Assembly (NCBI RefSeq): GCF_012516375.2
Contig: NZ_CP051204.2
Span: 7,983,501 to 8,047,500, forward strand
Direction: 5' to 3'
Source: Chitinophaga oryzae
Lineage (GTDB): Bacteria; Bacteroidota; Bacteroidia; Chitinophagales; Chitinophagaceae
Length of the DNA: 64,000 nucleotides
Below, piece by piece: positions 6,739 to 63,883 of this stretch; the stretch's first letter is position 1, and the number at the start of each line of letters is the position of its first letter. The position numbers and the translations under genes were made by a program. Under the pieces are notes generated by a model, which was given only the letters and a program-made list of their open reading frames with translations, did no database searches and was not told the origin of the DNA.

Positions 6739-7458
6739 GTGCGATTAGAAGAGCATATTTTACTGGAAACACCTGATTTTGTTGTTGTGAACAAGCCATC
6801 CGGCATGCTGACGCTGCCCGACCGGCACGACAATGAACTAACGTCCCTGATAGCCGTCATGAAAAAGGCTTACGGGGAAATATTCACCGTACACCGGCTG
6901 GACCGCGATACCAGTGGCATTATCCTGTTCGCCCGCAACGAAGCGGCCCACAAATACTTCTCCCAGCTGTTTGAAAGCCGCGATGTGGAGAAATACTACC
7001 TTGGCCTGGTACATGGCGTTCCCACGCCGGAAAAAGGTTCTGTCAACGAAGGTATTATGGAACATCCGGTACAGAAGGGGAAGATGGTGACCAACCGCAA
7101 GGGCAAGGCTTCTTTGACAGACTATGAAGTACTGGAGTCTTTTGGACTTTACAGCCTCATGAAATGGAGGATCCATACCGGCCGTACCCACCAGATCAGG
7201 GTGCACATGAAACATCTCGGTCACCCGATTGCGGTAGATGAACTGTACGGCAGCCCTCAGCCTGTTTTGTTATCGTCCATCAAGAAAAAATTCAAGCTGG
7301 GCAAACATACAGAAGAAGAACGCCCCCTGCTCTCCCGCCTGGCGCTGCATGCTGCCATGCTGGTGTTTAAAGACCCTTCCGGCAAGGCCTATACCGTAGA
7401 AGCCCCGCTGCCGAAAGATATCAATGCGGTAGTTACGCAATTACGGAAAAACCGGTAA
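6739..7458 (+). CDS. RluA-family pseudouridine synthase
   Basis: A 239-residue RluA-type pseudouridine synthase without an S4 domain. The catalytic Asp55 lies in HRLDRDTSG, and RTHQIRVHMKHLGHPI is the conserved C-terminal motif. The start is GTG, 3 nt after the stop of the RluB-like gene, so the two are almost certainly translated from one mRNA. The target uridine (rRNA or tRNA) cannot be told from sequence. A solo 8-bp-phase repeat arm follows at 7464, then a terminator at 7567-7597. Confidence 0.93.
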   Translation: MRLEEHILLETPDFVVVNKPSGMLTLPDRHDNELTSLIAVMKKAYGEIFTVHRLDRDTSGIILFARNEAAHKYFSQLFESRDVEKYYLGLVHGVPTPEKGSVNEGIMEHPVQKGKMVTNRKGKASLTDYEVLESFGLYSLMKWRIHTGRTHQIRVHMKHLGHPIAVDELYGSPQPVLLSSIKKKFKLGKHTEEERPLLSRLALHAAMLVFKDPSGKAYTVEAPLPKDINAVVTQLRKNR

Positions 7459-7463
7459 CCGAA

Positions 7464-7503
7464 GCATTTTGAAATTTTAAAATTTTGATATTGGGGTATT
7501 TGG
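7464..7503 (+). repeat. Solo 8-bp-phase repeat arm
   Basis: Five consecutive 8-mers in exact register (GCATTTTG, AAATTTTA, AAATTTTG, ATATTGGG, GTATTTGG) begin 5 nt after the RluA-like stop codon. No matching inverted arm is present, unlike the two-armed copies elsewhere in the window. Confidence 0.7.
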
Positions 7504-16830: not shown

Positions 16831-17484
16831 ATGATAATCAATTTAAGTGAAACAAATTCGCTGGTAGGTGAATGGCTAAGCGAGATCCGGAATGTGGAAG
16901 TACAGCAGGACCGTATGCGCTTCCGGCGTAATATGGAAAGGCTGGGGGAAGTAGCCGCCTACGAAATCAGCAAAACACTGGATTATGTGGAGAAAGAAGT
17001 GACCACGCCTATGGGTATCGCCAATTGCCGGGTGCTGAAAACACAGCCGGTGCTGGCTACTATTCTGCGGGCAGGGCTGGCGCTCCATCAGGGTTTGCTG
17101 CATTATTTCGATAAGGCCGACCATGCATTTATTTCCGCTTATCGTAAACACAACCACGACGGCTCTTTCGATATCAGCCTGGAATATGTGAGCAGTCCTT
17201 CCATTGAAGGACAGGTGCTGATCCTTTCCGATCCGATGCTGGCTACGGGTTCTTCCCTGGTAAAAACCATCGAGCACCTGGAGGAAATCGGCAAACCCAG
17301 TCACATTCACCTGGTAGTGGCCATTGCCTGCACCGTGGGTATCGAATATGTGCTGCGCAATACCAAAGCCAATATTACCATCTGGGCTGGAGATATTGAT
17401 GATGAACTGACCGCCAAAGGCTATATTGTACCGGGTCTGGGCGATGCCGGAGATCTGGCTTTTGGAAATAAATTACAACAATAA
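16831..17484 (+). CDS. upp: Uracil phosphoribosyltransferase
   Basis: Pyrimidine salvage enzyme making UMP from uracil and PRPP. At 217 residues it is typical. The PRPP loop is LILSDPMLATGSS, and the uracil-binding end is GLGDAGDLAFG. LRAGLALHQG is also conserved. It follows the VWA gene by 47 nt on the same strand, but no functional link is evident. An 8-bp-phase palindrome lies 43 nt after its stop. Confidence 0.95.
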   Translation: MIINLSETNSLVGEWLSEIRNVEVQQDRMRFRRNMERLGEVAAYEISKTLDYVEKEVTTPMGIANCRVLKTQPVLATILRAGLALHQGLLHYFDKADHAFISAYRKHNHDGSFDISLEYVSSPSIEGQVLILSDPMLATGSSLVKTIEHLEEIGKPSHIHLVVAIACTVGIEYVLRNTKANITIWAGDIDDELTAKGYIVPGLGDAGDLAFGNKLQQ

Positions 17485-17527
17485 TCCCGGCGCGGCGTTT
17501 AATAAAAGGAATTTTCTGAATACAGCT

Positions 17528-17608
17528 TACGGATTTGGCGATTTAAATAATGGAAGTATATCACACGATTTTACACCATTATTTAAATTGTTAAATCCGT
17601 AAATTTAT
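17528..17608. repeat. 8-bp-phase inverted repeat after upp
   Basis: Left arm 8-mers TTACGGAT, TTGGCGAT, TTAAATAA (17528-17551) face right arm CATTATTT, AAATTGTT, AAATCCGT, AAATTTAT (17577-17608). The outer TTACGGATTT / AAATCCGTAA pair is perfect. Confidence 0.75.
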
Positions 17609-19693: not shown

Positions 19694-20398
19694 ATGAGTG
19701 CTACAGGCAAAGTGTACCTGATCCCCACTGTGTTGAGCGCTGACGCCCTGTTCAGCATTCCTGCCTATATAACTACGATCGCACAGCAGTTGCGCGTGTT
19801 CTATGTAGAAAATGAGCGGACTGCCCGTCGCTACCTGAAAGCGCTGGACAGAAACATCAATATCGATGAACTGCAGTTGCTGCCGATGCATGAAAACCAG
19901 CCACCAGACATAGCCCTGGCGAAGAAACATCTACTGGCAGGTACCGATATCGGCGTATTAAGCGAGGCGGGATGCCCTGCTATCGCAGACCCGGGCCACC
20001 TCGTTGTGCAGGCTGCCCACAGCATCGATGCCCGCGTGGTCCCCATGGTAGGCCCCAACTCTATGCTGCTGGCCCTGATGGCTTCCGGCATGAACGGCCA
20101 GAACTTCCAGTTTACCGGCTACCTGCCCATCAAAGCCCCGGAGAGAGGCAAAGCGCTGCGCCAGCTGGAAGACGAATCCGAACGAAAAAAACAAACACAG
20201 TTGTTCATAGAAACACCTTACCGTAACAATCAACTGCTGAAAGACATACTGGACCACTGTAAAGATCATACCCGGCTGTGCGTGGCCGTTGATATCACCG
20301 GACCGGAAGAATACATCAAAACAAAAACTATCAAAGAATGGCGCAAAGCATTGCCGGACCTGCATAAGCGGCCGGCGATATTTTTACTCCACGCCTAA
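19694..20398 (+). CDS. SAM-dependent methyltransferase, RsmI-like (tetrapyrrole methylase fold)
   Basis: Protein of 234 residues with the two-domain tetrapyrrole-methylase fold of RsmI, the 16S rRNA C1402 2'-O-methyltransferase. The motifs LSEAGCPAIADPG, VVPMVGPNSMLLALMASG and FIETPYRNN are RsmI-like. It is about 40-50 residues shorter than canonical RsmI, lacking the C-terminal helical part, and DIGVLSEAG replaces the usual DAGTP loop. It may therefore be a Bacteroidota paralogue with another substrate. It starts 2 nt after the EI24 gene. Confidence 0.82.
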   Translation: MSATGKVYLIPTVLSADALFSIPAYITTIAQQLRVFYVENERTARRYLKALDRNINIDELQLLPMHENQPPDIALAKKHLLAGTDIGVLSEAGCPAIADPGHLVVQAAHSIDARVVPMVGPNSMLLALMASGMNGQNFQFTGYLPIKAPERGKALRQLEDESERKKQTQLFIETPYRNNQLLKDILDHCKDHTRLCVAVDITGPEEYIKTKTIKEWRKALPDLHKRPAIFLLHA

Positions 20399-20401
20399 AG
20401 C

Positions 20402-20505
20402 AATTACGGAATTACGAATTACGAATTGAGGGCTTCCTTATGGAAAGGTTATTTAGTAACCGCTCCATAAGGAAGCCCTCAATTCGTAATTCGTAATTCG
20501 TAATT
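20402..20505. repeat. AATTACG-armed palindrome (7-bp phase)
   Basis: A 43-nt left arm (20402-20444) and 42-nt right arm (20464-20505) are inverted copies differing by one extra G. Outer thirds are tandem AATTACG units; inner thirds are unique (GAGGGCTTCCTTATGGA). It starts 4 nt after the RsmI-like stop and its other end runs into the stop codon of the convergent gene. Confidence 0.9.
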
Positions 20506-20894
20506 TATGGAAGATCTCTGCCGGAAGCGTCTCTGACACTGATAACACTATCCACGATAAACGGGCTGTAGCCGCGCCATGGCAATGCGCCGAGGTATTC
20601 TTTGTAGTGCAGCTCCACGGTTTTGCCGCTGGCAGTCATCAGTTGCTGCGCAACACGCTCGTCCGCTACGGAGAACTGGAATTCATTGGACTGAATGGTC
20701 CCCGCGGTACGGCCTTTGTAACCGGACTGGATGAGTTTCCCTTCATAGGTTTTGAAGACATAGCCCTTTTCCACGAAGTAGTTGAGTTCACCCGCCTTTA
20801 CGCCTCTGCCGAAGACGAAGTAAAACTTGTACAGGAAAATGCCGCCCAGTACCAGGACAATGATAGTAATGATAATAAAAATAAACCGGCCCAT
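20505..20894 (-). CDS. Small membrane-anchored hypothetical protein
   Basis: A 129-residue protein with one N-terminal membrane segment (FIFIIITIIVLVLGGIFLYKF) and a soluble domain of about 100 residues, probably outside the membrane (GRGVKAGELNYFVEKGYVFKTYEGKLIQSG). I do not recognise the domain. CAAAAGTA at 20921-20928 (minus-strand -7 TACTTTTG) fits a short leader. Its TAA stop overlaps the end of the AATTACG palindrome. It lies 25 nt after the stop of the M28 peptidase. Confidence 0.75.
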   Translation of the reverse strand: MGRFIFIIITIIVLVLGGIFLYKFYFVFGRGVKAGELNYFVEKGYVFKTYEGKLIQSGYKGRTAGTIQSNEFQFSVADERVAQQLMTASGKTVELHYKEYLGALPWRGYSPFIVDSVISVRDASGRDLP

Positions 20895-25014: not shown

Positions 25015-25112
25015 CATTTAGCTATTTGACCATTTGGTTATTTAGCCATTGAAGGGCAGCCGGGGCATTCATCAATGAAACCAATAACCAAATGCACAAA
25101 TGATCAAATTAT
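25015..25112. repeat. 8-bp-phase inverted repeat between the EnvC paralogues
   Basis: Left 8-mers CATTTAGC, TATTTGAC, CATTTGGT, TATTTAGC (25015-25046) face CCAATAAC, CAAATGCA, CAAATGAT, CAAATTAT (25081-25112). The TAA stop of the upstream EnvC-like gene lies inside the last unit. Confidence 0.8.
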
Positions 25113-26569
25113 CTGCGTCTGATCCACTGTTCGGGATTCTGTTTGGTAACCCCTTTCCAGATCTGCAGTTCCACTTCACCGGTGTTTTCGATATCGTTCA
25201 CACTGGCGGTACCGATCACCTGGCCGGTTTTCACCATGTCTCCTTTCTTCACACGGGTAGTCTGCAAACGAACATAGGTTGTAAAGTATTGTCCGTGACG
25301 GATAATAATTACATAGCCGGAGCCGGGCATCACTACTACTGATTTCACTTCCCCGTCGAAGATGGATTTCACGGCGCCTCCTTTGGTGGTGGCGATCACG
25401 ATACCGTCGGAAGGTACGGTGATATGTTCCATCACGGCGTGTTGGTGTATCCCGAAGTGTTCAATGATATTGCCGGCATCCACGGGCCAGGGCAGTTTAC
25501 CACGGTTGGCCTCAAAGCTTTCGGACAGCGCCAGCGCTTCAGGGGTAGCTTCCAGCACGTTTTCACTACGGGCAGGAGCCGGTTTCGGAGGTTCCGGCGC
25601 AGGTTTGGGCGGTTCCGGTGTTGGCGCTGGCCTGGCCGGCGGGTTATTGGCGGCAGGATTGTTATTGGCGTTATTGGCAGCAGCAGCGGCGGCGGCATCG
25701 GCCTTCGCTTTCTCTGCGGCAGCCAGTGCGGCTTTGCGGGCTTCTTCTTCTCTTTTACGTTTTTCTTCGGCAGCTTTACGGCGGGCAGCTTCCTCTTCCA
25801 TGGCCTTACGGCGCGCTTCTTCGATCTCACGGCGGATTACCGCACGGATGGCAGCCTGTACTTTCTGGGCATCTTTATTACGCTGATTGATATCCGCTAC
25901 CAGCTCTTTCTCACGCCCTTTCAGCTTTGAGAGCACTTCGTCCTTCTCTTTCTTATCCTGTTCCAGGGTAGCGCGCTCGTCCTGCTCTGTCTTCAGCGCG
26001 TCGGCGCGTTTCAGGCGCTGGTTCTGGAGGCTCTGGATTTTCTGGTTCAGCTGGTCCTGGGTAGACAGGATATTATCGGCCTGACGGCGGCGGTATTCGC
26101 GGTATTGCTTGAGATATTGAAAACGTTTTACGGCATCGTTGAAGCTCTGGGCGGAAAACACAAAGTTCAGCATGTCGTAGGAAGAGCGGTTTTTGTAGGC
26201 ATATACGACCAGCTGGGCGTACTGCGCTTTCAGGGTGTCGAGGTCTTTCTGCAGGGTTTTTACATCGCGGTTGGCGGTATTGATGTCCCCGTTGATGAAA
26301 TTGATCTCGTCGTTGATATTATTGATCAGCCGGGTACGCAGGGTGATTTTGTCGCGCAGTGCGCGCAGCTGGCCCAGGCTTTCCTTGGTAGATTTTTTGG
26401 TATCCTTCAGCTGTTGATTGGCTTCTTCGATCTCTCTTTGCAGCTCTTTTTTCCTGCGCTCCAGTTCCTCCCGCGTCGGTTGCTGCTGGCTGGTATTCTG
26501 AGCCACCAGTATAGCCGGTAACAACCATATGATGCATACTAACGGGATAATCTTCTTCAAATACAACAT
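25109..26569 (-). CDS. EnvC-like murein hydrolase activator, paralogue 2 (degenerate LytM)
   Basis: Exported 486-residue relative of the next gene downstream, with the same order: signal peptide (LVCIIWLLPAILVAQ), coiled coil (about 25-280), a linker very rich in A, N and P with PEPPKPAPEPPKP repeats, then a LytM domain. The same catalytic losses are seen (GEVELQIWKG in place of HxH; TYVRL in place of YxHL). Two similar activators in tandem suggest separate amidase partners or cell-cycle roles; this is inference. The ATG at 26569 fits the signal peptide. It is the fourth gene of the dut-TPR-DUF4292 block. Confidence 0.9.
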   Translation of the reverse strand: MLYLKKIIPLVCIIWLLPAILVAQNTSQQQPTREELERRKKELQREIEEANQQLKDTKKSTKESLGQLRALRDKITLRTRLINNINDEINFINGDINTANRDVKTLQKDLDTLKAQYAQLVVYAYKNRSSYDMLNFVFSAQSFNDAVKRFQYLKQYREYRRRQADNILSTQDQLNQKIQSLQNQRLKRADALKTEQDERATLEQDKKEKDEVLSKLKGREKELVADINQRNKDAQKVQAAIRAVIRREIEEARRKAMEEEAARRKAAEEKRKREEEARKAALAAAEKAKADAAAAAAANNANNNPAANNPPARPAPTPEPPKPAPEPPKPAPARSENVLEATPEALALSESFEANRGKLPWPVDAGNIIEHFGIHQHAVMEHITVPSDGIVIATTKGGAVKSIFDGEVKSVVVMPGSGYVIIIRHGQYFTTYVRLQTTRVKKGDMVKTGQVIGTASVNDIENTGEVELQIWKGVTKQNPEQWIRRR

Positions 26570-26674
26570 GACTATTTTAAGTAACTGCAATTAAGTACCA
26601 AGGTTCAAGTATATAAACGATAAATATACAACGTTTATTAGTTTAATGAAGATGACATTTGCCGGGAAAATTAA

Positions 26675-29773: not shown

Positions 29774-29879
29774 AAATTACGAATTACGAATTACGAATTA
29801 CGAATCACAAACGGGGCTATTACTCAATAACTACTGCCTGAAAATGACGTCATCATTCGTAATTCGTAATTCGTAATTT
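29774..29879. repeat. AATTACG-armed palindrome between ispF and dut
   Basis: 25-nt perfect inverted arms of tandem AATTACG units (29774-29798 and 29855-29879), with one extra unit on the left and a 56-nt centre holding TGACGTCA. The right arm runs into the TAA stop of ispF. Confidence 0.88.
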
Positions 29880-30366
29880 ATTGAGCGATTTTCTCCAATA
29901 ATACGACGGCGTGTGCGGTAACGCCTTCCTCACGTCCGACGAAGCCCAGCTTTTCCGTTGTGGTGGCCTTTACAGATACGTCTTCCACTCCTACACGCAG
30001 TATTTCCGCAATGACAGCCTGCATCTGAGGTACATAAGACTTGATTTTAGGGGCCTGCAGGCACAGGGTGCTGTCCACATTCACCACACCATAACCTTTT
30101 TCGCCGATCAGCTGCGCACAGCGGGCCAGCAGTATCTTACTGTCGATATTCTTATAGGTATTGTCCGTATCCGGGAAATGCACGCCGATATCACCCAGCG
30201 ACAGAGCGCCCAGCATGGCATCGCAGATAGCGTGCAACAGCACGTCTGCATCACTGTGCCCCAAAGCGCCTTTGTGGTGCGGCACCTTCACACCGCCCAG
30301 CCAGAAATCCCGGCCTTCCACCAGCTGATGAAAATCTACTCCCAGACCAATACGTATACTACTCAT
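29878..30366 (-). CDS. ispF: 2-C-methyl-D-erythritol 2,4-cyclodiphosphate synthase
   Basis: Fifth committed enzyme of the MEP isoprenoid pathway, forming MEcPP with loss of CMP. The 162-residue protein has the zinc-site motif GVDFHQLVEGR, the GHSDADVLLHAICDA helix and the C-terminal KATTTEKLGFVGREEGVTA. Length is normal. It lies downstream of porV on the same strand, past a terminator. Its TAA stop is formed by the adjoining AATTACG repeat. Confidence 0.96.
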   Translation of the reverse strand: MSSIRIGLGVDFHQLVEGRDFWLGGVKVPHHKGALGHSDADVLLHAICDAMLGALSLGDIGVHFPDTDNTYKNIDSKILLARCAQLIGEKGYGVVNVDSTLCLQAPKIKSYVPQMQAVIAEILRVGVEDVSVKATTTEKLGFVGREEGVTAHAVVLLEKIAQ

Positions 30367-30451: not shown

Positions 30452-30487
30452 TTAATATTTTGGAATTTTGTTATTTAGAAATTTGAT
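30452..30487 (+). repeat. Solo 8-bp-phase repeat arm after porV
   Basis: Consecutive 8-mers TTAATATT, TTGGAATT, TTGTTATT, TAGAAATT lie between the porV stop and its terminator. No inverted partner arm is seen. Confidence 0.65.
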
Positions 30488-30495
30488 GGTGATGA

Positions 30496-36959: not shown

Positions 36960-37120
36960 TCACGCAAAGAACGCTAAGGAGCAAAGAACACAAAGATTTT
37001 TTAAGTTTTAAATAAGAAAATAAGAAGGGGCGAAGATCAAATTGATCTTCGCCCCTTCTTATTTTCTTATTTAACCTATTCGGTCTTTGCTTCTCTGCTT
37101 ACTTACGCTTCTTTGCGTGA
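36960..37120. repeat. Nested palindrome with CGCAAAGA-type outer arms
   Basis: An outer pair TCACGCAAAGAA (36960-36971) / TTCTTTGCGTGA (37109-37120) flanks the 33-bp inner palindrome. Near the left arm, degenerate ACGCAAAGA-like units occur in tandem (ACGCAAAGA, ACGCTAAGG, AGCAAAGA, ACACAAAGA). The right outer arm is inside the last codons of bcp. Confidence 0.8.
37008..37074. terminator. Perfect 33-bp palindrome, likely bidirectional terminator of gldJ and bcp
   Basis: Arms 37008-37040 and 37042-37074 are perfect inverted copies around one A. The GGGGCGAAGATCAA core is flanked by A/T-rich ends that supply U-rich tails in both directions. It lies between convergent genes. Confidence 0.75.
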
Positions 37121-39378: not shown

Positions 39379-41642
<2,264 letters not shown>

Positions 41643-41650
41643 CACCTGAT

Positions 41651-41747
41651 ATTTAGGGATTTTTTGATTTACGATTTTGGAATTTAAAATGCTGCGACGA
41701 TCCGCTTCGGTTAAATTCCAAAATCGTAAATCAAAAAATCCCTAAAT
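41651..41747. repeat. 37-bp perfect 8-bp-phase palindrome between eno and the FtsB-like gene
   Basis: Arms 41651-41687 and 41711-41747 are perfect inverted copies around a 23-nt loop. From 41653 the left arm reads in 8-mers TTAGGGAT, TTTTTGAT, TTACGATT, TTGGAATT. It ends 6 nt before the FtsB-like start codon. Confidence 0.92.
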
Positions 41748-43992: not shown

Positions 43993-45195
43993 ATGAAATC
44001 AGCCGTAAGAGTACAATTGTCCTTCATGATGTTCCTCGAATTCTTTATCTGGGGAGCATGGTTTGTGACACTGGGTACGTTCGTATTAAAAAATCTGCAG
44101 GACACCAACGCCAACCAGGTGAGCGTTGCGTTCCTCACCCAATCGATCGGGGCTGTGATTGCACCTTTCATCGTGGGTATCATTGCGGACCGTTTTATTT
44201 CCGCCCAGGTGATCCTTGGCGCCATTCACCTGATCGGGGCAGCCCTGTTATGGACCTGTTCCGGTATGACCAGCTTCGACAGCTTTTATCCCGTACTGCT
44301 GGTGTACATGATCCTGTACATGCCAACACTGGCGCTGGTAAACTCCATCTCCTTCCGGCAGATGAGCGATCCCAGCAAGGAGTTCTCCACCATCCGCGTA
44401 TTCGGCACCTTCGGCTGGATCATTGCCGGGCTGCTGATCGGCTGGCTCAACTGGGAGAAATCCAACACCCTCGGCCTCACCTTTAAGATGGCTGCCGGCG
44501 CATCACTGCTGCTGGGCCTCTTCAGCTTTACGCTGCCCAAAACGCCACCGGCTAAAAAAGGTACCGAGATCTCTGTAAAAGAAATCCTCGGCCTGGACGC
44601 CATCCGGATGCTGAAAAACCGCTCTTACCTGCTGTTTTTCCTGGCTTCCATCGCTATCTGTATCCCGCTGGCGTTCTATTACAACTTCACCAATCCGTTC
44701 CTGAATGAAATTGGTATGACTGCCGCCGCCGGTAAACAATCCCTCGGCCAGATGTCCGAATTTTTCTTCATGCTGGTAATGCCGCTCTTCTTTGTCCGCC
44801 TGGGCGTGAAAAAGATGCTGGCGCTGGGTATGCTGGCGTGGGTGCTGCGTTATGTGCTGTTTGCCTACGGTAATGTGGATTCCAATTACTGGATGCTGAT
44901 CGTAGGTATCGTGCTGCATGGTATCTGCTACGACTTCTTCTTTGTTACCGGTCAGATTTACACCGATAAGCTGGCAGGGGAAGAATTCAAAAGCTCTGCG
45001 CAGGGTTTCGTTACCCTCGCTACGTACGGTGTAGGCATGCTGATCGGTTTCCTGATCTCCGGTCCTATCGTAGAGTCTTACAAAACCGCCTCCGGTCACA
45101 ACTGGCAAGGCGTCTGGCTGATCCCTGCCGGTATCGCCGCCGCTGTGCTGGTGCTGTTTATGCTGCTCTTCCAGGACAAAACAGAAAAGATTTGA
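43993..45195 (+). CDS. Nucleoside:H+ symporter family permease
   Basis: Membrane protein of 400 residues with about 12 hydrophobic segments, in the nucleoside:H+ symporter group of the major facilitator superfamily (NupG/XapB-like). The start RVQLSFMMFLEFFIWGAWFVTLG and the FGTFGWIIAGLLIGWL segment are characteristic. It likely imports nucleosides for the salvage enzymes encoded nearby (upp, ade). Its TGA stop is the first three bases of an 8-bp-phase repeat. Confidence 0.9.
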   Translation: MKSAVRVQLSFMMFLEFFIWGAWFVTLGTFVLKNLQDTNANQVSVAFLTQSIGAVIAPFIVGIIADRFISAQVILGAIHLIGAALLWTCSGMTSFDSFYPVLLVYMILYMPTLALVNSISFRQMSDPSKEFSTIRVFGTFGWIIAGLLIGWLNWEKSNTLGLTFKMAAGASLLLGLFSFTLPKTPPAKKGTEISVKEILGLDAIRMLKNRSYLLFFLASIAICIPLAFYYNFTNPFLNEIGMTAAAGKQSLGQMSEFFFMLVMPLFFVRLGVKKMLALGMLAWVLRYVLFAYGNVDSNYWMLIVGIVLHGICYDFFFVTGQIYTDKLAGEEFKSSAQGFVTLATYGVGMLIGFLISGPIVESYKTASGHNWQGVWLIPAGIAAAVLVLFMLLFQDKTEKI

Positions 45196-45406
45196 TTATT
45201 TGATTATTTGGCTATTGGGGTATTTGATTTACGGATTTTGGAATTTTTTGATTTACAGATTTTTGGGGTTAAATATGGGGAGATTGATATAATATCGAAT
45301 TTAAAATTTAAAAATTTGGGTATTTAATATTTGATATTAAAATTTTCTTCTCCCAAAATCCGTAAATCAAAAAATTCCAAAATCCGTAAATCAAATATCT
45401 AAATTG
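45193..45406. repeat. Long 8-bp-phase inverted repeat between convergent genes
   Basis: Left 8-mers run in exact register from 45193 (TGATTATT, TGATTATT, TGGCTATT, GGGGTATT, TGATTTAC, GGATTTTG, GAATTTTT, TGATTTAC). The right arm runs from 45353 (CCAAAATC, CGTAAATC, AAAAAATT, CCAAAATC, CGTAAATC, AAATATCT). The core arms 45221-45267 and 45352-45397 differ by one base change and one insertion. Both flanking stop codons lie inside repeat units. Confidence 0.92.
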
Positions 45407-45989
45407 TCTTAATAAAAAGTGCTTTCCCTAAAGTGTGGTTAACCTCTACCTCCGTTAATACGCCGTTGGTATACTTATAGATGTTTTTCTTGCCTTCCGG
45501 CAGTGCCAGTTCGTACTGGCCGCTTCCCAGTGCGCGGAGGGGCAGGAATCTGCCCAGCGCTTCCGAAAAGATACGCGACACCTGTTTAGGTTCCGAAAAA
45601 TAGAGATCGGCTACGCAATGCGCTATTTCCGTGTTGCCGATCACTGAACGGGCGCCGTTCAATATTATCGTATAGTCGTTTCCGTTACGGCGCGTTGTCG
45701 TTTCCTTATCTTCTCCTTTTTTCCCTGCCACGCGGGTAGACCTGGCCAGGGTGAGCACGTTGTTGTCGTACTCATTGAGGATATCGCTGTTGACTTTTGC
45801 CAGTAGTGTCTGAATACGTGTTTTAATCGTGATACTCTTGGCAGATCCGGTTACTTTACGTTGTGCTTCGATAGTGCCCACTGCATGATTGGCGATCCGT
45901 ACTTCAAAAGTGGTCGTTTGGGCATGTGCCGGGAGGTAGAATACAGCTACCGTTGCAACGCATAATAATACACGAAAAAGGCATTTCAT
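45399..45989 (-). CDS. Exported DUF6134-like hypothetical protein
   Basis: A 196-residue protein with a signal peptide (LFRVLLCVATVAVFYLPAHAQ) and a beta-rich body opening TFEVRIANHAVGTIEAQRK, resembling the Bacteroidota DUF6134 family. No enzymatic motif is seen. Its TAG stop falls inside the repeat unit CTAAATTG. It lies 183 nt downstream of korA with no terminator recognised between them. Confidence 0.72.
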   Translation of the reverse strand: MKCLFRVLLCVATVAVFYLPAHAQTTTFEVRIANHAVGTIEAQRKVTGSAKSITIKTRIQTLLAKVNSDILNEYDNNVLTLARSTRVAGKKGEDKETTTRRNGNDYTIILNGARSVIGNTEIAHCVADLYFSEPKQVSRIFSEALGRFLPLRALGSGQYELALPEGKKNIYKYTNGVLTEVEVNHTLGKALFIKTI

Positions 45990-49753: not shown

Positions 49754-50503
49754 ATGAAGAAACAAGCTATCATAACTTACACCAGTCTCAGTGTGAGCTG
49801 GTTATTACTGATGCTGGCGATCTTTACCCTTATCCTGAGCGGTTGCGCCCGGGACCAGATAGCCGGATCAGGCCATATTGTGGCGGAAACCCGCAACACC
49901 TCTCCTTTTTCAGAAGTGGAAATATCCGGTCCGTTTGAAGTGCACCTGGTGCAGGACAGTACCGCAGCCGTAGAGATCAGGGCGGAAGACAATGTTATTG
50001 GCGCTATCGAGACCAATACCAGCAGCAATACCCTGTTCATCCGTTTGCGGAACCGGGTGAGGCTGTGGCGTCATATGCCGATACAGGTGTTTGTGCACAG
50101 CCGCAGTTACCAGCGTATTAACTTCGCCGGCTCCGGCAGTCTGGATAATAAGGACACCTTACAAAGCAACACCTTTTCCTACCAGATTGACGGCAGCGCC
50201 AACGCAGCGCTGGCAGTCGCTGTACAGGAACTGCATACCCGGATCAACGGTTCGGGCAACCTCGATCTTAAAGGCAAGGCCATTTCCCTCAACAGCGCCA
50301 TTAACGGCAGCGGTCAGGTCGCAGCGCTTGACCTCGATACCCAGCAGGCCGATATTACCATCAGAGGATCCGGCGACCACACCATACGCGTACAGAACCA
50401 GCTGTCTGTAGGCATTTACGGCAGCGGTGACGTGACCTATGCCGGTAATCCGCAAAAAGTACAAACGAATATTAAAGGATCAGGCAAAGTAAAGAAGATC
50501 TGA
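49754..50503 (+). CDS. DUF2807 (head GIN domain) lipoprotein
   Basis: Lipoprotein of 249 residues; a hydrophobic leader ends in the lipobox LILSGC. The mature part is a right-handed beta-helix of the DUF2807 type, with repeated GSG-containing turns (FAGSGSLDNKD, INGSGNLDLKG, INGSGQVAALD, IRGSGDHTI, IYGSGDVTYAG, IKGSGKVKKI). It is likely periplasmic or at the outer membrane; related proteins are common but uncharacterised. A terminator follows at 50554. Confidence 0.88.
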   Translation: MKKQAIITYTSLSVSWLLLMLAIFTLILSGCARDQIAGSGHIVAETRNTSPFSEVEISGPFEVHLVQDSTAAVEIRAEDNVIGAIETNTSSNTLFIRLRNRVRLWRHMPIQVFVHSRSYQRINFAGSGSLDNKDTLQSNTFSYQIDGSANAALAVAVQELHTRINGSGNLDLKGKAISLNSAINGSGQVAALDLDTQQADITIRGSGDHTIRVQNQLSVGIYGSGDVTYAGNPQKVQTNIKGSGKVKKI

Positions 50504-50587: not shown

Positions 50588-50599
50588 TCATTGAGGGAC

Positions 50600-50756
50600 T
50601 TAGATATTTTGGTATTTGGTTATTTTGATATTTTGATATTGGGTTTAGGAAGCACGTGGTTCTATAGTGATGGGGGCGCAGGCATTCCCGAAAAAAATAG
50701 CCATTGGGAAGAACCCAATGGCTAAATATCTAAATAACTAAATTTTCAAATAATCA
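50600..50756. repeat. 8-bp-phase inverted repeat between DUF2807 and 2H genes
   Basis: Left 8-mers TTAGATAT, TTTGGTAT, TTGGTTAT, TTTGATAT, TTTGATAT (50600-50639) face CCAATGGC, TAAATATC, TAAATAAC, TAAATTTT, CAAATAAT (50715-50754). Arms are in phase but only loosely complementary. The stop of the 2H gene lies at its right edge. Confidence 0.75.
50691..50724 (-). terminator. Terminator of the kynU-2H unit
   Basis: TAGCCATTGGG and CCCAATGGCTA form an 11-bp perfect stem around 5 nt; on the minus strand a run of seven T follows. It lies within the 8-bp-phase repeat. Confidence 0.87.
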
Positions 50757-51992
50757 GGCGCCGCCCAGTTTGCATTTCTGCAGTACTTCCCAGGATTTGC
50801 CGTTATGACGCAGGAAGTAGAGGTTGTTTACTTTGAAAGTAGCCTCGTATTCCTTGTTTTCGTATTCGGGCCAGGCCTTGTTGAACTGTTCGTCGTCCAG
50901 GTCTTTAAATGCAACGGTTACGTGCGGTGTAAAGCCGGTACGTGCCAGCATGGTGCTGAATCCGAATTCCTTACGCAGGAAGTTGATCAGCTGGCGATGC
51001 ATGGTGGCCATGGTCTCGCTTTTTTCCACGTTGATGAACAGGACGCGGTTCTGTTTGTTCGGGAAGGTACCGAAGCCTTTCAGGGACACTTCAAAAGGAG
51101 CCTGTGTTTTAGCGAATTCCGTCAGTTCATCGCAGAAGGCTTTTTCCAGTGCCGGGTCGGCTGTAAAAGGTACCTGCAGGGTGATGTGAGGCAGTACTTT
51201 CAATGCGTACATTGGTCCGTATTGTTCAGCAAACTCCTGTTTTATCTTGATGATTTCCTTACCTACTTCTGCAGTGGGCAGCAGTGCAATAAAGTAAATC
51301 TTATTATCTGGTTTGGGTTCGAAGCGTCTGTTCTGGCCACCGGGTCTTGGTCTGCCGCCGCCGCCGCGATTGTAGCCGCCACCACCGCCACCGCGGTTAT
51401 AGCCTCCGCCGCCGCGATCGTAACCACCACCGCCACCGCGATTGTAGCCTCCGCCACCGCCGCCACGGTCGTAACCACCACCGCCACCGCGGTTGTAGCC
51501 TCCGCCACCGCCGCCACGGTCGTAACCACCACCGCCACCGCGGTTGTAGCCACCACCACCGCCACCGCGGTCGTAACCACCACCGCCACCGCGGTCGTAA
51601 CCACCACCGCCACGATCGTAGCCGCCACCACCTTCGCGGTTATAGCCACCGCCGTCGCGGTTGTATCCACCACCACGATCATAGCCGCCACCACCGCGAT
51701 CATAACCACCACCGCCGCCGCGGTCATATCCGCCGCCGCCACGATCGTAGCCACCTTCACGATTGTAACCGCCATCGCGGTTGTACTCAGTACGGGGGCG
51801 ATACCCACCCTCGCGATTGTAATCAGTACGTGGACGACGTTCCCCGTCTCCACCGTTGTAGTCGGGTTTTCCACCCTCCCGCTCATTGTTTAAGTTGGGT
51901 CTGTAGTCACCTCTCTCCTTGTTGGGATCATTCTCTTTGTTGGTATCAGAAGAGTAGGGCCTGCGGGGGCGTTCGTTTCTCTCAAAATTCAT
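50754..51992 (-). CDS. 2H phosphoesterase (2'-5' RNA ligase family) with RGG/GGY-repeat N-terminus
   Basis: A 412-residue protein in two parts. Residues 1-228 are low-complexity: first polar, then about 20 units of the GGGYDRGG / GGGYNRGG type, giving an RGG- and tyrosine-rich tail like those of RNA-binding, condensate-forming proteins. Residues 231-412 are a 2H phosphoesterase domain with both catalytic motifs, H269-I-T271 and H357-V-T359. The family acts on 2'-5' or cyclic phosphodiester bonds in RNA. It starts 9 nt after kynU. RNA targeting by the tail is inference. Confidence 0.85.
   Translation of the reverse strand: MNFERNERPRRPYSSDTNKENDPNKERGDYRPNLNNEREGGKPDYNGGDGERRPRTDYNREGGYRPRTEYNRDGGYNREGGYDRGGGGYDRGGGGGYDRGGGGYDRGGGYNRDGGGYNREGGGGYDRGGGGYDRGGGGGYDRGGGGGGYNRGGGGGYDRGGGGGGYNRGGGGGYDRGGGGGGYNRGGGGGYDRGGGGYNRGGGGGGYNRGGGGRPRPGGQNRRFEPKPDNKIYFIALLPTAEVGKEIIKIKQEFAEQYGPMYALKVLPHITLQVPFTADPALEKAFCDELTEFAKTQAPFEVSLKGFGTFPNKQNRVLFINVEKSETMATMHRQLINFLRKEFGFSTMLARTGFTPHVTVAFKDLDDEQFNKAWPEYENKEYEATFKVNNLYFLRHNGKSWEVLQKCKLGGA
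51421..51522 (-). repeat. 51-bp tandem minisatellite within the 2H gene
   Basis: Two nearly identical 51-bp units (51421-51471, 51472-51522) and a third partial unit encode a 17-residue block of GGG-YDR/YNR repeats. The unit length is a multiple of three, so unit gain or loss would change tail length without a frameshift. Confidence 0.85.
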
Positions 51993-60598: not shown

Positions 60599-60782
60599 GG
60601 CGCCGAAGCCGGGATGCGGCGCCGGGCAGCAGGGGCAGCAGGAAATAGCGCCGGACAGCATGGGATGAAAAAACCTGACAGCAATGGGATAGCGGGCCTC
60701 CGGCAATCTTTACAATCAGGCAATACGGAGAGCGGACAATCTTCCGCTTATTTGTCTAATTTTGTGCCTCATTCCTTTTGCC

Positions 60783-61391
60783 ATGTCGCCAAAACTCAGA
60801 TTAAAAGTGTTTGCGTCCCGTTTATTGCGGTATTTCTTCCAGGGCCTGCTGATACTGGCCCCTATCGGGATCACTGCACTGACATTATATTGGGCGTTTG
60901 TTACTATTGACAATCTTATTCCGAAGGAGATCATTCCGGACGACACCTCATTCAACTTTTTAAAATACAAGGGCGTAGGGTTTGCGCTGGTATTGGTATT
61001 AGTGGTAGTGGTAGGGTATCTGAGTTCTTCTTTTATTATCGGGCGGATCTTCGATCTGTTTGACCATCTGCTGGAGCGTACTCCATTTATCAAATACATT
61101 TACACTTCTATCAAGGATGTATTCGATGCTTTTGTGGGAGAGAAGAAAAAGTTCGACCATCCTGTGCTGGTACAGATTTACGGCGTGGATGTATGGGAGA
61201 TGGGATTTATTACCCAGACGGACGTGACCAGTCTGGGCATGGAAGGTTACATGGCCGTTTATGTGCCGCACGCCTACGCTATTACCGGTAAGGTGTTTAT
61301 TGTGCCGAAGGAGCGGGTGAAACCGCTGGAAAACGTTTCGGCCGGAGAGGCCATGAAATTTGCCGTCAGCGGCGGCGTCACCAATATTTAG
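60783..61391 (+). CDS. DUF502 family membrane protein
   Basis: Membrane protein of 202 residues. Two hydrophobic segments (YFFQGLLILAPIGITALTLYW and VGFALVLVLVVVVGYLSSSFI) flank IDNLIPKEIIP, followed by the conserved RTPFIKYIYTSIKDVFDAFVG and a soluble domain ending in KPLENVSAGEAMKFAVSGGV. DUF502 proteins are widespread but their role is unsettled. The start at 60783 is preferred to 60762, which overlaps the -7-like box. Confidence 0.9.
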   Translation: MSPKLRLKVFASRLLRYFFQGLLILAPIGITALTLYWAFVTIDNLIPKEIIPDDTSFNFLKYKGVGFALVLVLVVVVGYLSSSFIIGRIFDLFDHLLERTPFIKYIYTSIKDVFDAFVGEKKKFDHPVLVQIYGVDVWEMGFITQTDVTSLGMEGYMAVYVPHAYAITGKVFIVPKERVKPLENVSAGEAMKFAVSGGVTNI

Positions 61392-61397
61392 TCAATG

Positions 61398-61490
61398 GGT
61401 TATTTAGAAATTTGGTTATTTAATTCTTACGGATGCTTGGCCAATTTGGGATAAATAGCTAAATTTCTAAATAACCGGATTTCTAAATTG
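61398..61490. repeat. 8-bp-phase inverted repeat after the DUF502 gene
   Basis: Left 8-mers GGTTATTT, AGAAATTT, GGTTATTT (61398-61421) face ATAAATAG, CTAAATTT, CTAAATAA, CCGGATTT, CTAAATTG (61451-61490). Arms 61398-61422 and 61452-61476 differ at only a few positions. Confidence 0.82.
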
Positions 61491-61496
61491 TTTGTT

Positions 61497-62483
61497 ATGT
61501 TAACCCGTATCCTGAAGCAGCGTTTCGCTGTAAGTTTCACTTTTATATTAATGATGTATGCCGGCAAGGCTGGTGGCTGGGGCTTTTTCGCCCACGAGCG
61601 GATCAACCGGCTGGCGGTCTTTTGTCTGCCGCCGGAGATGCTGGTGTTGTACAAGCCGCAGCTGGAGTATATCCGTGTGCACGCTACCGATCCGGATAAA
61701 CGGCGGTATATGGTGGCTGCCGAGGCGCCGCGGCACTACCTGGACATAGACGTGCTGGACCGGCCGCCTTACCGGCAGATACCGCACAGCTGGCAGGAGG
61801 CGGTAGCGCGGTACGGGGCCGATTCGCTGCAGCGCAACGGTATATTGCCCTGGCACCTGGAAAAGATCATGTTTATGCTGACGAAGGCGTTCCGGGAGCG
61901 GGACCAGCAGCGGATATTGCAGTTATCGGCAGAAGCCGGGCATTACGTGGCGGACGCACATGTGCCGCTGCATGCCTGTTCCAATCACAACGGGCAGTTC
62001 ACCGGGCAGACGGGCATCCACGGGCTGTGGGAGTCGCGCATCCCGGAGTTGCTGGCGGACGCGGAGTTTGACTACTGGGCCGGCAAAGCGCGCTATATCA
62101 GCGACTGGCGGGCCTATGTATGGCAGATCGTCACCAGCAGCGGCCTGGCAGCGGATACCGTTTTACAAAAAGAAAAGCAGTTATGTGAACAGACGCCGCC
62201 GGCTCAGCGTTATGCATATGAAGTCAGGAACGGCGTGTTAACGAGAACTTACGCTGAAGGTTATACGAAAGCGTATCACCAGTTGTTGGGAGGCATGACA
62301 GCGCGGCGGATGAAACAGGCTATAGCCGCCGTGGCGGCCTGCTGGTATACTGCCTGGGTAAATGCAGGACAGCCCTCTCTGAGGGAGCTTCATCACACAA
62401 GCCTTACAGAGAGCGAGCTACAGGAGTTCGAACAGCTGCAACGGCGGTGGACAGAGGGACGCATGCTGGGCAGAACAGAATAA
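61497..62483 (+). CDS. Exported zinc-dependent phospholipase C / S1-P1 nuclease-like protein
   Basis: Protein of about 328 residues with a signal peptide ending near residue 24 (AGKAGG). The mature chain begins GGWGFFAHERIN, the N-terminal Trp (W28) and His (H33) zinc-ligand pattern of the bacterial phospholipase C / S1-P1 nuclease superfamily. Later ligands appear in APRHYLDID and in AGHYVADAHVPLH ... GIHGLWESRIPEL (HxxxD and HxxxE). Whether it cuts lipid or nucleic acid is undecided. The ATG at 61497 is used; an in-frame TTG at 61488 lies in the preceding repeat. Confidence 0.85.
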   Translation: MLTRILKQRFAVSFTFILMMYAGKAGGWGFFAHERINRLAVFCLPPEMLVLYKPQLEYIRVHATDPDKRRYMVAAEAPRHYLDIDVLDRPPYRQIPHSWQEAVARYGADSLQRNGILPWHLEKIMFMLTKAFRERDQQRILQLSAEAGHYVADAHVPLHACSNHNGQFTGQTGIHGLWESRIPELLADAEFDYWAGKARYISDWRAYVWQIVTSSGLAADTVLQKEKQLCEQTPPAQRYAYEVRNGVLTRTYAEGYTKAYHQLLGGMTARRMKQAIAAVAACWYTAWVNAGQPSLRELHHTSLTESELQEFEQLQRRWTEGRMLGRTE

Positions 62484-62675
62484 ACGGGCAAAATATTTCG
62501 GCTGATACTGAATAATTGGAAAAGAAATTTTATCTTTGTTCCTACCGTCTTTTAACCTATCCTACACCACGCGCCTTACAGGTTTTAAAACACCCGTGCC
62601 GTTTTTTTTCCGTTTCCTTAGAAAAACCAAAACAAAGTGGAAAGATCAAAAAATGAATTTAATCTAGATCGTAAC

Positions 62676-63746
62676 ATGAAGGTGCATAATTTTAACGCAG
62701 GTCCTTCTGTATTGCCCAACGAGGTATTATACAAAGCCAGTAAAGCGCTGATCGATTTTGAGGGATCAGGGATGTCTATACTGGAAATAGGCCACAGAAC
62801 GGAGCCGTTTGTAGCGGTGATGGAAGAGGCGCGTAACCTGGTTAGGGAACTGATGCAGCTTGATGATGACTTCGAGGTGCTGTATTTACATGGAGGCGCC
62901 ACCACGCAGTTTATGCAGGTGCCCATGAATCTGCTGGAAAGCAGTGAGACAGCGGCATATGTCGATACCGGCGTATGGTCCAACAAGGCTATCAAGGAAG
63001 CGAAATTGTTTGGCTTCGTCGATGTAGTAGCCAGCTCCAAAGACAGTAACTACAACCACATCCCCAAGCAGTTCAACATTCCCCCACAGGCCAGCTACCT
63101 GCATATTACCACTAACAATACCATCTACGGTACCCAGTGGCATATGACCCCGGTAACAGACGTTCCCCTGATTGCGGATATGAGCAGCGACATTATGAGC
63201 CGCTCCATGGATTTCAACAAATACTCGCTGATCTACGCCGGTGTTCAGAAGAACATGGGCGCTGCCGGCGCTACCATGGTGGCCATCCGTAAAAGCATGC
63301 TCGGTAAAGTATCCCGTAAAATCCCGGCTATACTGGATTACAAGAATCACATAGACAACGGGTCTATGCTGAACACCCCTCCCGTATTTGCGGTATATAT
63401 CTCCATGCTCACCCTTCGCTGGTTAAAAGAGCAGGGCGGTATACCGGCCATCGAAAAAATCAACGAGAAAAAGGCAGCCCTGCTGTACGATGAAATTGAC
63501 CACAACCCGCTGTTCCGTGGTACGGTGGCCAAAGAAGACCGCAGCCTGATGAACGCCTGCTTCATCATGGACAAGCCTGAAATGGAAGAGGAATTTTTGA
63601 AATTCTGTAAGAAAGAAGATATTGTTGGCATTAAGGGACACCGCCTCTCCGGTGGTTTCCGGGTATCCATGTACAATGCTTTGCCCTACGAAAGCGTAGA
63701 AGTAATGGTGGAAGCCATGAAATACTTCTCCCTGAAGAAAGCTTAA
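62676..63746 (+). CDS. serC: Phosphoserine aminotransferase
   Basis: PLP enzyme (356 residues) that makes O-phosphoserine from 3-phosphohydroxypyruvate in serine synthesis. The PLP lysine is K192 in YAGVQKNMGAAG, and the phosphate-binding HGGATTQF and final GHRLSGGFRVSMYNA are conserved. The start MKVHNFNAGPSVLP at 62676 is standard; an upstream in-frame GTG (62637) adds 13 unrelated residues. TATCTTTG at 62532-62539 suggests a promoter with an unusually long leader (~130 nt). Confidence 0.97.
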   Translation: MKVHNFNAGPSVLPNEVLYKASKALIDFEGSGMSILEIGHRTEPFVAVMEEARNLVRELMQLDDDFEVLYLHGGATTQFMQVPMNLLESSETAAYVDTGVWSNKAIKEAKLFGFVDVVASSKDSNYNHIPKQFNIPPQASYLHITTNNTIYGTQWHMTPVTDVPLIADMSSDIMSRSMDFNKYSLIYAGVQKNMGAAGATMVAIRKSMLGKVSRKIPAILDYKNHIDNGSMLNTPPVFAVYISMLTLRWLKEQGGIPAIEKINEKKAALLYDEIDHNPLFRGTVAKEDRSLMNACFIMDKPEMEEEFLKFCKKEDIVGIKGHRLSGGFRVSMYNALPYESVEVMVEAMKYFSLKKA

Positions 63747-63883
63747 ACAATTACGAATTACGAATTACGGATTACGAATTAAGGTTTCTGACTGAATCCA
63801 CAACTCAGTTAGAAAGCCTTAATTCGCAATCCGTTACTGTATTCGCACTTTTTCGTAATTCGTAATTCGTAATTCGTAATTGT
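63747..63883. repeat. AATTACG-armed palindrome after serC
   Basis: Outer arms of about 24 nt made of tandem AATTACG units (from 63747 and up to 63883) enclose an imperfect inner pair around GAATTAAGG / CCTTAATTC. The right half carries about 30 extra nt. It begins directly after the serC stop codon. Confidence 0.87.

Follow-up and report, generated by a model that had tools for sequence, protein, structure and literature searches.

REP elements of Escherichia coli have been proposed to serve as 3'-exonuclease barriers, and cyanobacteria carry short repeated intergenic units in the form of the tandem heptamers and small dispersed repeats (SDR) of Nostoc. The SDR of Nostoc are also named in a passage of PMC3116915. 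Template switching homogenizes the arms of inverted repeats and inverts their spacers (part of PMC8604942), and it can create and maintain RNA stems (part of PMC8794818). As short phased intergenic units with a patchy spread across phyla, the elements analyzed here resemble the TAACTGA direct heptamer repeats of Beggiatoaceae, Cyanobacteria, and Bacteroidetes (PMC4679880); those repeats, in the sections of that paper compared, consist of one heptamer in direct orientation, located for the most part immediately 5' of start codons in the main species, whereas the units found here are varied, inverted, and located at 3' ends. The BrickBuilt MITE of Porphyromonas gingivalis (PMC4596501) is likewise an intergenic element of Bacteroidota with tandem units and inverted ends but differs, in the portion of that source compared, in its 23-nt unit, its 19 copies in one strain, and its promoter elements. 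Among the matches listed from the open-licence PMC literature, no title or abstract describes phased hairpins of the kind reported here.

Here, we report a family of phased intergenic palindromes from a 64,000-nt stretch of Chitinophaga oryzae (contig NZ_CP051204.2, positions 7,983,501 to 8,047,500; the window), from its genome, and from relatives. By computation, we show the phase and prevailing polarity of the arms and the position of the elements, which exclude canonical terminators and trade places with them; we also show that the sequences turn over fast, that loops are inverted and arms co-change, and that ATTT changes more slowly. The reading to which we give somewhat more credence than doubt is that the elements are dispersed 3'-end hairpins that replace terminators and are rewritten by template switching, with termination itself a prediction.

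Phased palindromes in the window

A composite 8-mer phased palindrome lies at 45190..45404 (no strand is assigned to this or the following elements), with outer ATTTGATT-type units and inner ATTTACGG/ATTTTTTG-type units. Its arm overlies the stop codon that ends the symporter gene upstream (43993-45195, +), and the element also overlaps the 3' end of 45399-45989 (-). The RNA fold of 45185-45410 reached -82.6 kcal/mol (z -10.4 versus shuffles), and the inner part folded alone gave z -2.2. At the same locus, sisters G045, G011, and G092 carry a GC hairpin (ATGCAGCG...CGCTGCAT) followed by a T-run terminator.

The first-pass annotation had described arms of consecutive 8-mers at six places, this one included. 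All six are inverted repeats, and 8-nt ATTT/AAAT chains are present at five (left-arm ATTT pairs at 25016, 41651, 45190, 50606, and 61402), the phase at 17528 being weak. Its statement that arm complementarity ranges from perfect to loose agrees with the palindromes at 41651..41747, whose 37-nt arms are perfect, and at 50605..50752, whose arms are loose. The former is directly 3' of the enolase gene (40353-41642, +) and folds at -57.1 kcal/mol (z -12.7, fold start 41645), and the latter lies between convergent genes 49754-50503 (+) and 50754-51992 (-), with z -4.8 for a 150-nt cut (50598-50747). Two further 8-mer palindromes are found at 25016..25111 (z -2.2, fold start 25010), at the stop codon of 25109-26590 (-, M23 peptidase) and with a loop that is inverted between species, and at 61386..61488 (z -6.7, fold start 61384), between 60762-61391 (+) and 61488-62483 (+). 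The inverted repeat at 17527..17602 is a border case of the family: 27 nt long and 89% complementary, with two ATTT words in its left arm and three AAAT words in its right, it lies 3' of 16831-17484 (+), folds with z -10.6 (fold start 17520), and is found in five relatives.

Palindromes with a 7-nt phase and AATTACG arms occur at 20402..20505 (with a GAGGGC...GCCCTC inner stem, between convergent open reading frames [ORFs] 19694-20398 [+] and 20505-20894 [-]), at 29775..29878 (reaching the 3' end of ORF 29878-30366 [-]), and at 63749..63881 (directly 3' of ORF 62637-63746 [+]). Lone 8-mer arms, probably decayed, were recognized by eye at 30452..30490 and at 7466..7503, the second just 3' of ORF 6739-7458 (+). 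A single palindrome of the window, at 37010-37074, has the reverse arm order; it has two units in each arm and resembles an ordinary bidirectional terminator. Ten proteins flanking the elements (enolase, nucleoside symporter, UPRTase, PorP/SprF, M23 peptidase, and others) had no common theme, and the whole window had no Rfam match at the gathering score.

Phase, polarity, and classes of units

The arm consensus is ATTTNNNN on the 5' side and NNNNAAAT on the 3' side. Across the genome (a single contig of 8,363,885 bases), (ATTTNNNN)x3+ATTT had 323+303 (626) overlapping matches, versus 7+3 (10) for the control pattern read backwards. Within 1.2 Mb, ATTT triples numbered 107 at lag 8 and 0 to 3 at lags 4 to 7 and 9 to 15. 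The lag-8 autocorrelation that the first-pass annotation had offered as its own test was borne out in the arms of 110 hairpins from the same 1.2 Mb (intergenic, score ≥40, arm ≥20 nt), with z 16.6 at lag 8 and values near zero at lags 9 and 10. Lag 7 was equally strong (z 15.5) because a second, 7-mer class is present; an 8-mer ATTT pair was found in 40/110 hairpins and an AATT 7-mer pair in 27/110. The 42 arms lacking an obvious chain still gave z 5.0 at lag 8, but z 3.7 at lag 9 too. The register is less strict than had been claimed ("no base slips"): of 161 successive ATTT steps in the 5' halves, 133 measure 8 nt and 9 measure 7 nt, and one 7-nt step is present even in the perfect palindrome at 41651.

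In the same 1.2 Mb, 38 of 43 candidate left-right pairs reach an inverted-repeat score of 40, versus 0/43 shuffles. These 38 elements were selected as ATTT-left, and polarity was hence tested elsewhere. The ATTT arm comes first in 36/36 two-sided chain clusters, one of which (L-R-L) has a further ATTT arm behind, and a dedicated search of the 1.2 Mb outside the 38 returned no reverse-order element. Among 102 arms with at least three units, the partner lies on the expected side in 69 and on the wrong side in none (above the 99th percentile of the null). The arms mirror each other in composition, the 5' arm being G-rich and C-poor (G232:C52) and the 3' arm the reverse (C265:G52), and the element tips inspected have A-left/T-right polarity. 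No GTAG/CGTC tag was noticed in the elements inspected.

Fourteen elements are of type A (units ATTTGGTT, ATTTGATT, and ATTTTGAT) and 24 of type B (units ATTTTTTG, ATTTACGG, and ATTTAGGG). The earlier view that copies share no single sequence therefore does not hold for the 24/38 of type B, which use recurrent words (ATTTTTTG 22, ATTTACGG 8, and ATTTACGA 7 times among 156 left units, 63 of which are distinct) and of which 6/24 share a tip hairpin around GARGACC. The separate 7-mer class comprises 27 elements in the 1.2 Mb; they have AATTACG arms, and many of them also the inner GAGGGC...GCCCTC stem. A 9-mer class (GATTNNNNN) has matches in 3 of 79 genus genomes, chiefly G059. By a lower bar, 22 lone arms were collected (9 sense, 8 antisense, 5 unassigned), and these mixed orientations make them look like remnants. 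A single-stranded AUUU array read on the sense mRNA was rejected on the same counts.

Gene ends and sequence turnover

By a home-made codon-usage gene caller, the 38 elements occupy 17 convergent, 17 tandem, and 4 divergent gaps, compared with 123, 584, and 147 of 854 intergenic regions. The convergent excess (17/38 versus 123/854) is significant (Fisher P = 3.5e-6), and the divergent depletion (4/38) is not (P = 0.38). In all 17 tandem cases the element edge is no more than 25 nt from the upstream stop codon, as it is within 25 nt in 15/16 tandem cases of the 7-mer class. A separate canonical terminator (hairpin plus T-run outside the element) was found at 1/46 element-bearing gene ends, a count lowered by itself through the little room that element-filled gaps leave for one; canonical terminators were found at 70/165 convergent and 101/303 tandem (gap 80+) ends without an element and in 0/210 operon-like gaps. 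The arms being ATTTNNNN repeats, a GC-rich stem with a U-run occurs only beside an element (1/46) or inside it: at 10/46 gene ends a terminator-like hairpin lies within the element, and the tip alone could do the terminating work there. The 3' arm is A/C-rich and no T-run terminator was found outside the tips, a polarity opposite to that of a canonical terminator.

Of 30 element sites, 29 had one or more orthologs, and the 74 orthologous comparisons gave the same class in 46, a canonical terminator in 13, another hairpin in 10, and none in 5. These labels are automatic and contain errors: 11 of the 13 canonical calls are clear by eye, G045 at 227885 was called canonical and looks like a decayed 8-mer, and G092 at 50600 is doubtful. 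Most of the 10 relatives with "other" hairpins look by eye like diverged phased hairpins and are weak evidence of exchange. Site 45193 is without G050 and G011 rows in this set, since an additional gene lengthens the gap too much. The clearest exchanges, with the 45193 locus, are the 7-mer sites 14393, 172602, and 263662, at which GC stems with a trailing T-run are found in both sisters. In more distant species, the enolase site (41651) is occupied by 8-mer, 7-mer, 9-mer-like, or ordinary terminator hairpins (by eye); hairpins at orthologous sites vary in this way, so this is one slot that different hairpins fill. Two G050 sites (84336 and 131625) are short and nearly empty; for the most part, relatives have another hairpin in place of the element. 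A derivation of the loops from local terminators was also considered and gave an ambiguous picture, because GCAGCG-type stems are dispersed.

The preferred account of these gene ends runs as follows. Dispersed AT-rich palindromes of phased ATT(T)-core units (8 nt, with a parallel 7-nt class) sit in the terminator slot directly 3' of stop codons and stand in for ordinary intrinsic terminators. The RNA is predicted to fold as a long hairpin from the stop codon, which in convergent pairs would serve both transcripts, and mRNA 3' ends would be formed or protected by it. The hairpin may act by stopping RNA polymerase or by blocking a 3' exonuclease after Rho-dependent termination. Copies would spread by replacing resident terminators.

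Turnover at these sites is fast. For gaps of 60 to 320 nt with well-aligned flanks, median intergenic identity to G045 is 0.84 at 8-mer sites (n = 10), 0.66 at 7-mer sites (n = 9), and 0.96 at others (n = 120), and identity to G050 is 0.60 (n = 9), 0.57 (n = 9), and 0.91 (n = 109), respectively. Type A and type B hairpins have been exchanged among sisters at 201656, 248016, and 339533 (by eye). At 25015 the left arm has five units in G000 and seven in G050 (by eye), the gain or loss between relatives that the first-pass annotation had proposed to look for. Its model of units gained and replaced in step on both arms is thereby partly upheld, but whole hairpins are also exchanged for other hairpin types or ordinary terminators, which unit-by-unit slippage does not explain.

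Loops are reverse-complemented between species at 25015, 104006, and 253472 in a centered-window test of 196 directed comparisons (12 flipped, at these three sites; 70 same; 114 ambiguous). At 25015 the G000 row was dropped from that test by its arm score, and the G000 flip relative to G045 was seen by eye. Stricter definitions gave fewer flips: 29 pairs of fold-defined loops were 16 same, 0 flipped, and 13 ambiguous, and loops cut by arm alignment were 22 same, 2 flipped (one a weak match), and 12 ambiguous, with 80 skipped. At 838 paired positions in alignable orthologs (rows with identity ≤0.70 left out, as in the first substitution test below), 30 double changes were counted, 21 of them Watson-Crick, versus 8.1 expected; one-sided breaks (75) outnumber double changes, and one-sided G-U changes number 30. 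Arm homogenization and spacer inversion in close relatives, the marks of a template-switched inverted repeat, are thus represented by 21 Watson-Crick double changes and three inverted-loop sites, and in these alignments loop inversion and arm co-change fit what template switching would produce. Of the earlier proposal of slippage plus template switching, this part is supported. Its whole-unit swaps fare less well: the NNNN spacers carry 0 changes in 57 cases, 1 in 41, 2 in 10, 3 in 5, and 4 in 1, and the changes mostly look like single substitutions. Under the preferred account, template switching during replication would invert loops and re-match arms, and slippage would alter unit number.

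The ATTT core changes more slowly than the spacer. With the register defined by a third species (outgroup), G000 and G045 differ at 2/166 core and 35/152 spacer positions (A/T positions, interior units); all pairs over whole arms gave 375/4791 and 485/2002 (counts that reuse positions), the core was slower at 10/14 sites, and G091 versus G092 had no contrast (48/327 core, 22/136 spacer). A first substitution test (3/283 core versus 82/466 spacer) suffered from ascertainment bias and was superseded by the third-species registers. A stem alone needs no ATTT every 8 nt, which leads to two readings, either that a factor reads the motif at this phase or that the copying process prefers it; ATT(T) at a fixed phase would accordingly be read by a trans factor or by copying itself. 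The first-pass suggestion of selection for an 8-nt phase gains from this position-specific constraint, with its exceptions, and loses in that 8 is not unique, given the 7-mer class here and the 9-mer class in three relatives.

Distribution, alternatives, and known systems

The strict two-arm 8-mer pattern matches 19 of 79 genus genomes; 11 have 26 to 485 matches (overlapping matches, not elements), 8 have 1 to 3, and 60 have none, and the control pattern is absent from all 79. A sample of the phylum gave a match in 1 of 394 further genomes, in AT-rich text and perhaps by chance. A scan of named genomes returned at least 119 stretches, mostly in Bacteroidota and many in Chitinophaga; some matches in its very AT-rich genomes are probably chance. 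Twenty-two genomes hand-picked from that scan had counts of 1 to 192, and two of them also matched the control (1 and 3 times). Where the control gave 0, counts were high in a Prevotellaceae metagenome-assembled genome (MAG; 192), Niastella vici (124), N. caeni (66), an Acidobacteria MAG (39), and a Thermoanaerobaculia MAG (18), and two Acidobacteria loci (L211 and L221) have 64% G+C. Among the 119 listed loci (Chitinophaga included; positions from a longest-ORF caller), 78/98 elements with a 3' neighbor lie within 40 nt of a stop codon and 2/127 lie inside an ORF. Spacer words vary between genomes and ATTT is shared, but the pattern searched for itself contained ATTT. It is a doubtful extension that these are phase-coded terminators of a class spanning phyla, dispersed palindromes that carry an ATT(T) core at intervals of 7, 8, or 9 nt, invade and replace intrinsic terminators, are re-matched by template switching, and have the spacing of the core read by a putative factor; the spread itself could reflect shared descent, transfer, or convergence, and some MAGs may be wrongly binned.

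The best-surviving alternative, tentative at most, is that the elements are 3'-exonuclease barriers, with termination Rho-dependent or leaky downstream and the hairpin only fixing the mature 3' end. Stems are stable in the RNA folds, Rho is present in 6/6 genus genomes looked at, and the C-rich, G-poor 3' arm has the composition of Rho loading sites, which are C-rich and G-poor. Yet that arm would be sequestered in the stem, the 8-nt ATTT phase is left without explanation, and the swaps with canonical terminators point to termination itself as the step concerned.

One unlikely account of the whole family treats it as selfish, REPIN/MITE-like miniature mobile palindromes that target terminator hairpins, where the host simply tolerates them and gains no function. 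The 7-mer class and type B share recognizable sequence, as an amplified family would, and a selfish component of the 7-mer class is likely. The load is patchy, as in the genus counts above, and a strong Y1_Tnp match (>80 bits) is present in 8/11 high-load genomes versus 6/68 others (five more of these others have weak matches), an association that ignores kinship. REP copies flank the cognate RAYT gene in REPIN/RAYT systems, and a RAYT is expected where elements are amplified; three of the 11 high-load genomes (G011, G073, and G088) have no Y1_Tnp match at all, although G088, a single contig, has 164 pattern matches. The window's genome has one Y1_Tnp gene, in whose 3345-base locus a GC-rich palindrome was found but no pair of 7- or 8-mer units. 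REPIN/RAYT as mobilizer was set aside because that gene is not flanked by units; a RAYT is not the obvious mobilizer. Simple insertion, moreover, should leave the old terminator alongside, and a separate one remains at a single gene end of 46.

We consider improbable that the palindromes are DNA-level sites (cruciforms, or nucleoid or gyrase binding sites) between convergent genes where transcription collides: convergent gaps are enriched and palindromes can extrude, but tandem elements hug the upstream stop (17/17), 8 bp is no helical repeat, and RNA-type terminators occupy some of the same sites in relatives. An origin under no selection, as a mere outcome of slippage and template switching when AT-rich DNA is replicated, is very improbable, since it accommodates the loop flips, arm co-change, and fast turnover but predicts neither the prevailing polarity (no element is reversed in 1.2 Mb, and the window has a single reversed palindrome, of two units), nor the placement at stop codons, nor an ATTT slower than A/T spacer bases, nor, a weaker point given the ATTT in the search pattern, the same core with other spacers in other genera.

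In Chitinophaga and some distant relatives, then, a long phased AT-rich hairpin closes many genes, and in sister species the corresponding position is often taken by an ordinary terminator. The family therefore looks like a putative gene-end signal that changes fast and spreads. If the elements end transcripts, a share of one bacterium's terminators has been swapped for a rapidly rewritten repeat, which would bear on 3'-end evolution and on the routes by which dispersed palindromes acquire a use. Through the loop flips and arm co-changes between sister species, template switching at hairpins would become visible in natural bacterial genomes. The phase of 7, 8, or 9 nt, with a slow core and faster spacer in Chitinophaga, raises the question of what reads it, and the 8-mer pattern occurs also in other Bacteroidota and an Acidobacteria MAG.

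Compared with canonical intrinsic terminators, the elements are alike in position after stop codons, in forming a hairpin, and in exchange at orthologous sites; they differ in their long AT-rich phased arms, with a U-rich 5' arm and an A-rich 3' arm, and in having no U-run terminator outside the element at 45/46 gene ends. With REP/REPIN and RAYT systems, as characterized in parts of PMC3116915 and PMC3733652, they share dispersal as extragenic palindromes, many copies, and lineage specificity, and they differ in their degenerate phased units and in having no unit pairs at the genome's only Y1_Tnp gene. The template-switched inverted repeats of PMC8604942 and PMC8794818 are yeast coding inverted repeats and RNA genes, with no phased units in the parts compared; their likeness to the Chitinophaga hairpins lies in arm homogenization and spacer inversion.

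Arm polarity and flanking genes of the 8-mer palindromes

The intergenic, AT-rich phased elements carry ATTT in the 8-nt units of their 5' arm and AAAT in those of the 3' arm. A long, bidirectional-terminator-like palindrome at 37010-37074 has an A-rich 5' arm and a T-rich 3' arm (AAATAAGAAAATAAG...CTTATTTTCTTATTT); it too follows an 8-nt step, with two units per arm, and its polarity is the reverse of that in the phased elements, making it a counterexample to strict arm polarity. Some phased arms overlap a stop codon (45193-45195 in the window, and several other elements), and the last protein codons can therefore be altered through element turnover.

At the site corresponding to 45193 in two other Chitinophaga genomes, G050 (contig C1, near 217,000) and G011 (contig C26, near 395,000), the symporter and DUF6134 genes are separated by an extra gene. 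A phased hairpin lies 3' of this gene in both, and a second precedes it in G050.

7-mer and other AATT repeats

Phased palindromes of the 7-mer class (AATTACG) were found at 20402-20505, 29775-29878 and 63749-63881. This class varies less in sequence than the 8-mer class and looks recently amplified within this genome. In G009, another genome of the genus, long tandem arrays of AATTATG/AATTGTG 7-mers (C10, 474121-474313 and the contig start) are direct repeats, not palindromes. The 7-mer pattern had 404 matches in a further congener, G061, against 211 for the reversed control, so G061 holds some other abundant AATT repeat.

Surroundings of the Y1_Tnp gene

Downstream of the sole Y1_Tnp (RAYT-like) gene of the genome (locus L051, 1900-2200), a GC-rich palindrome, CCCAGGGCTCACGCCCTGGG, occurs in inverted copies beside GATCAAAAAATGCG. 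Two palindromes resembling this one were found in the 1.2 Mb sampled.
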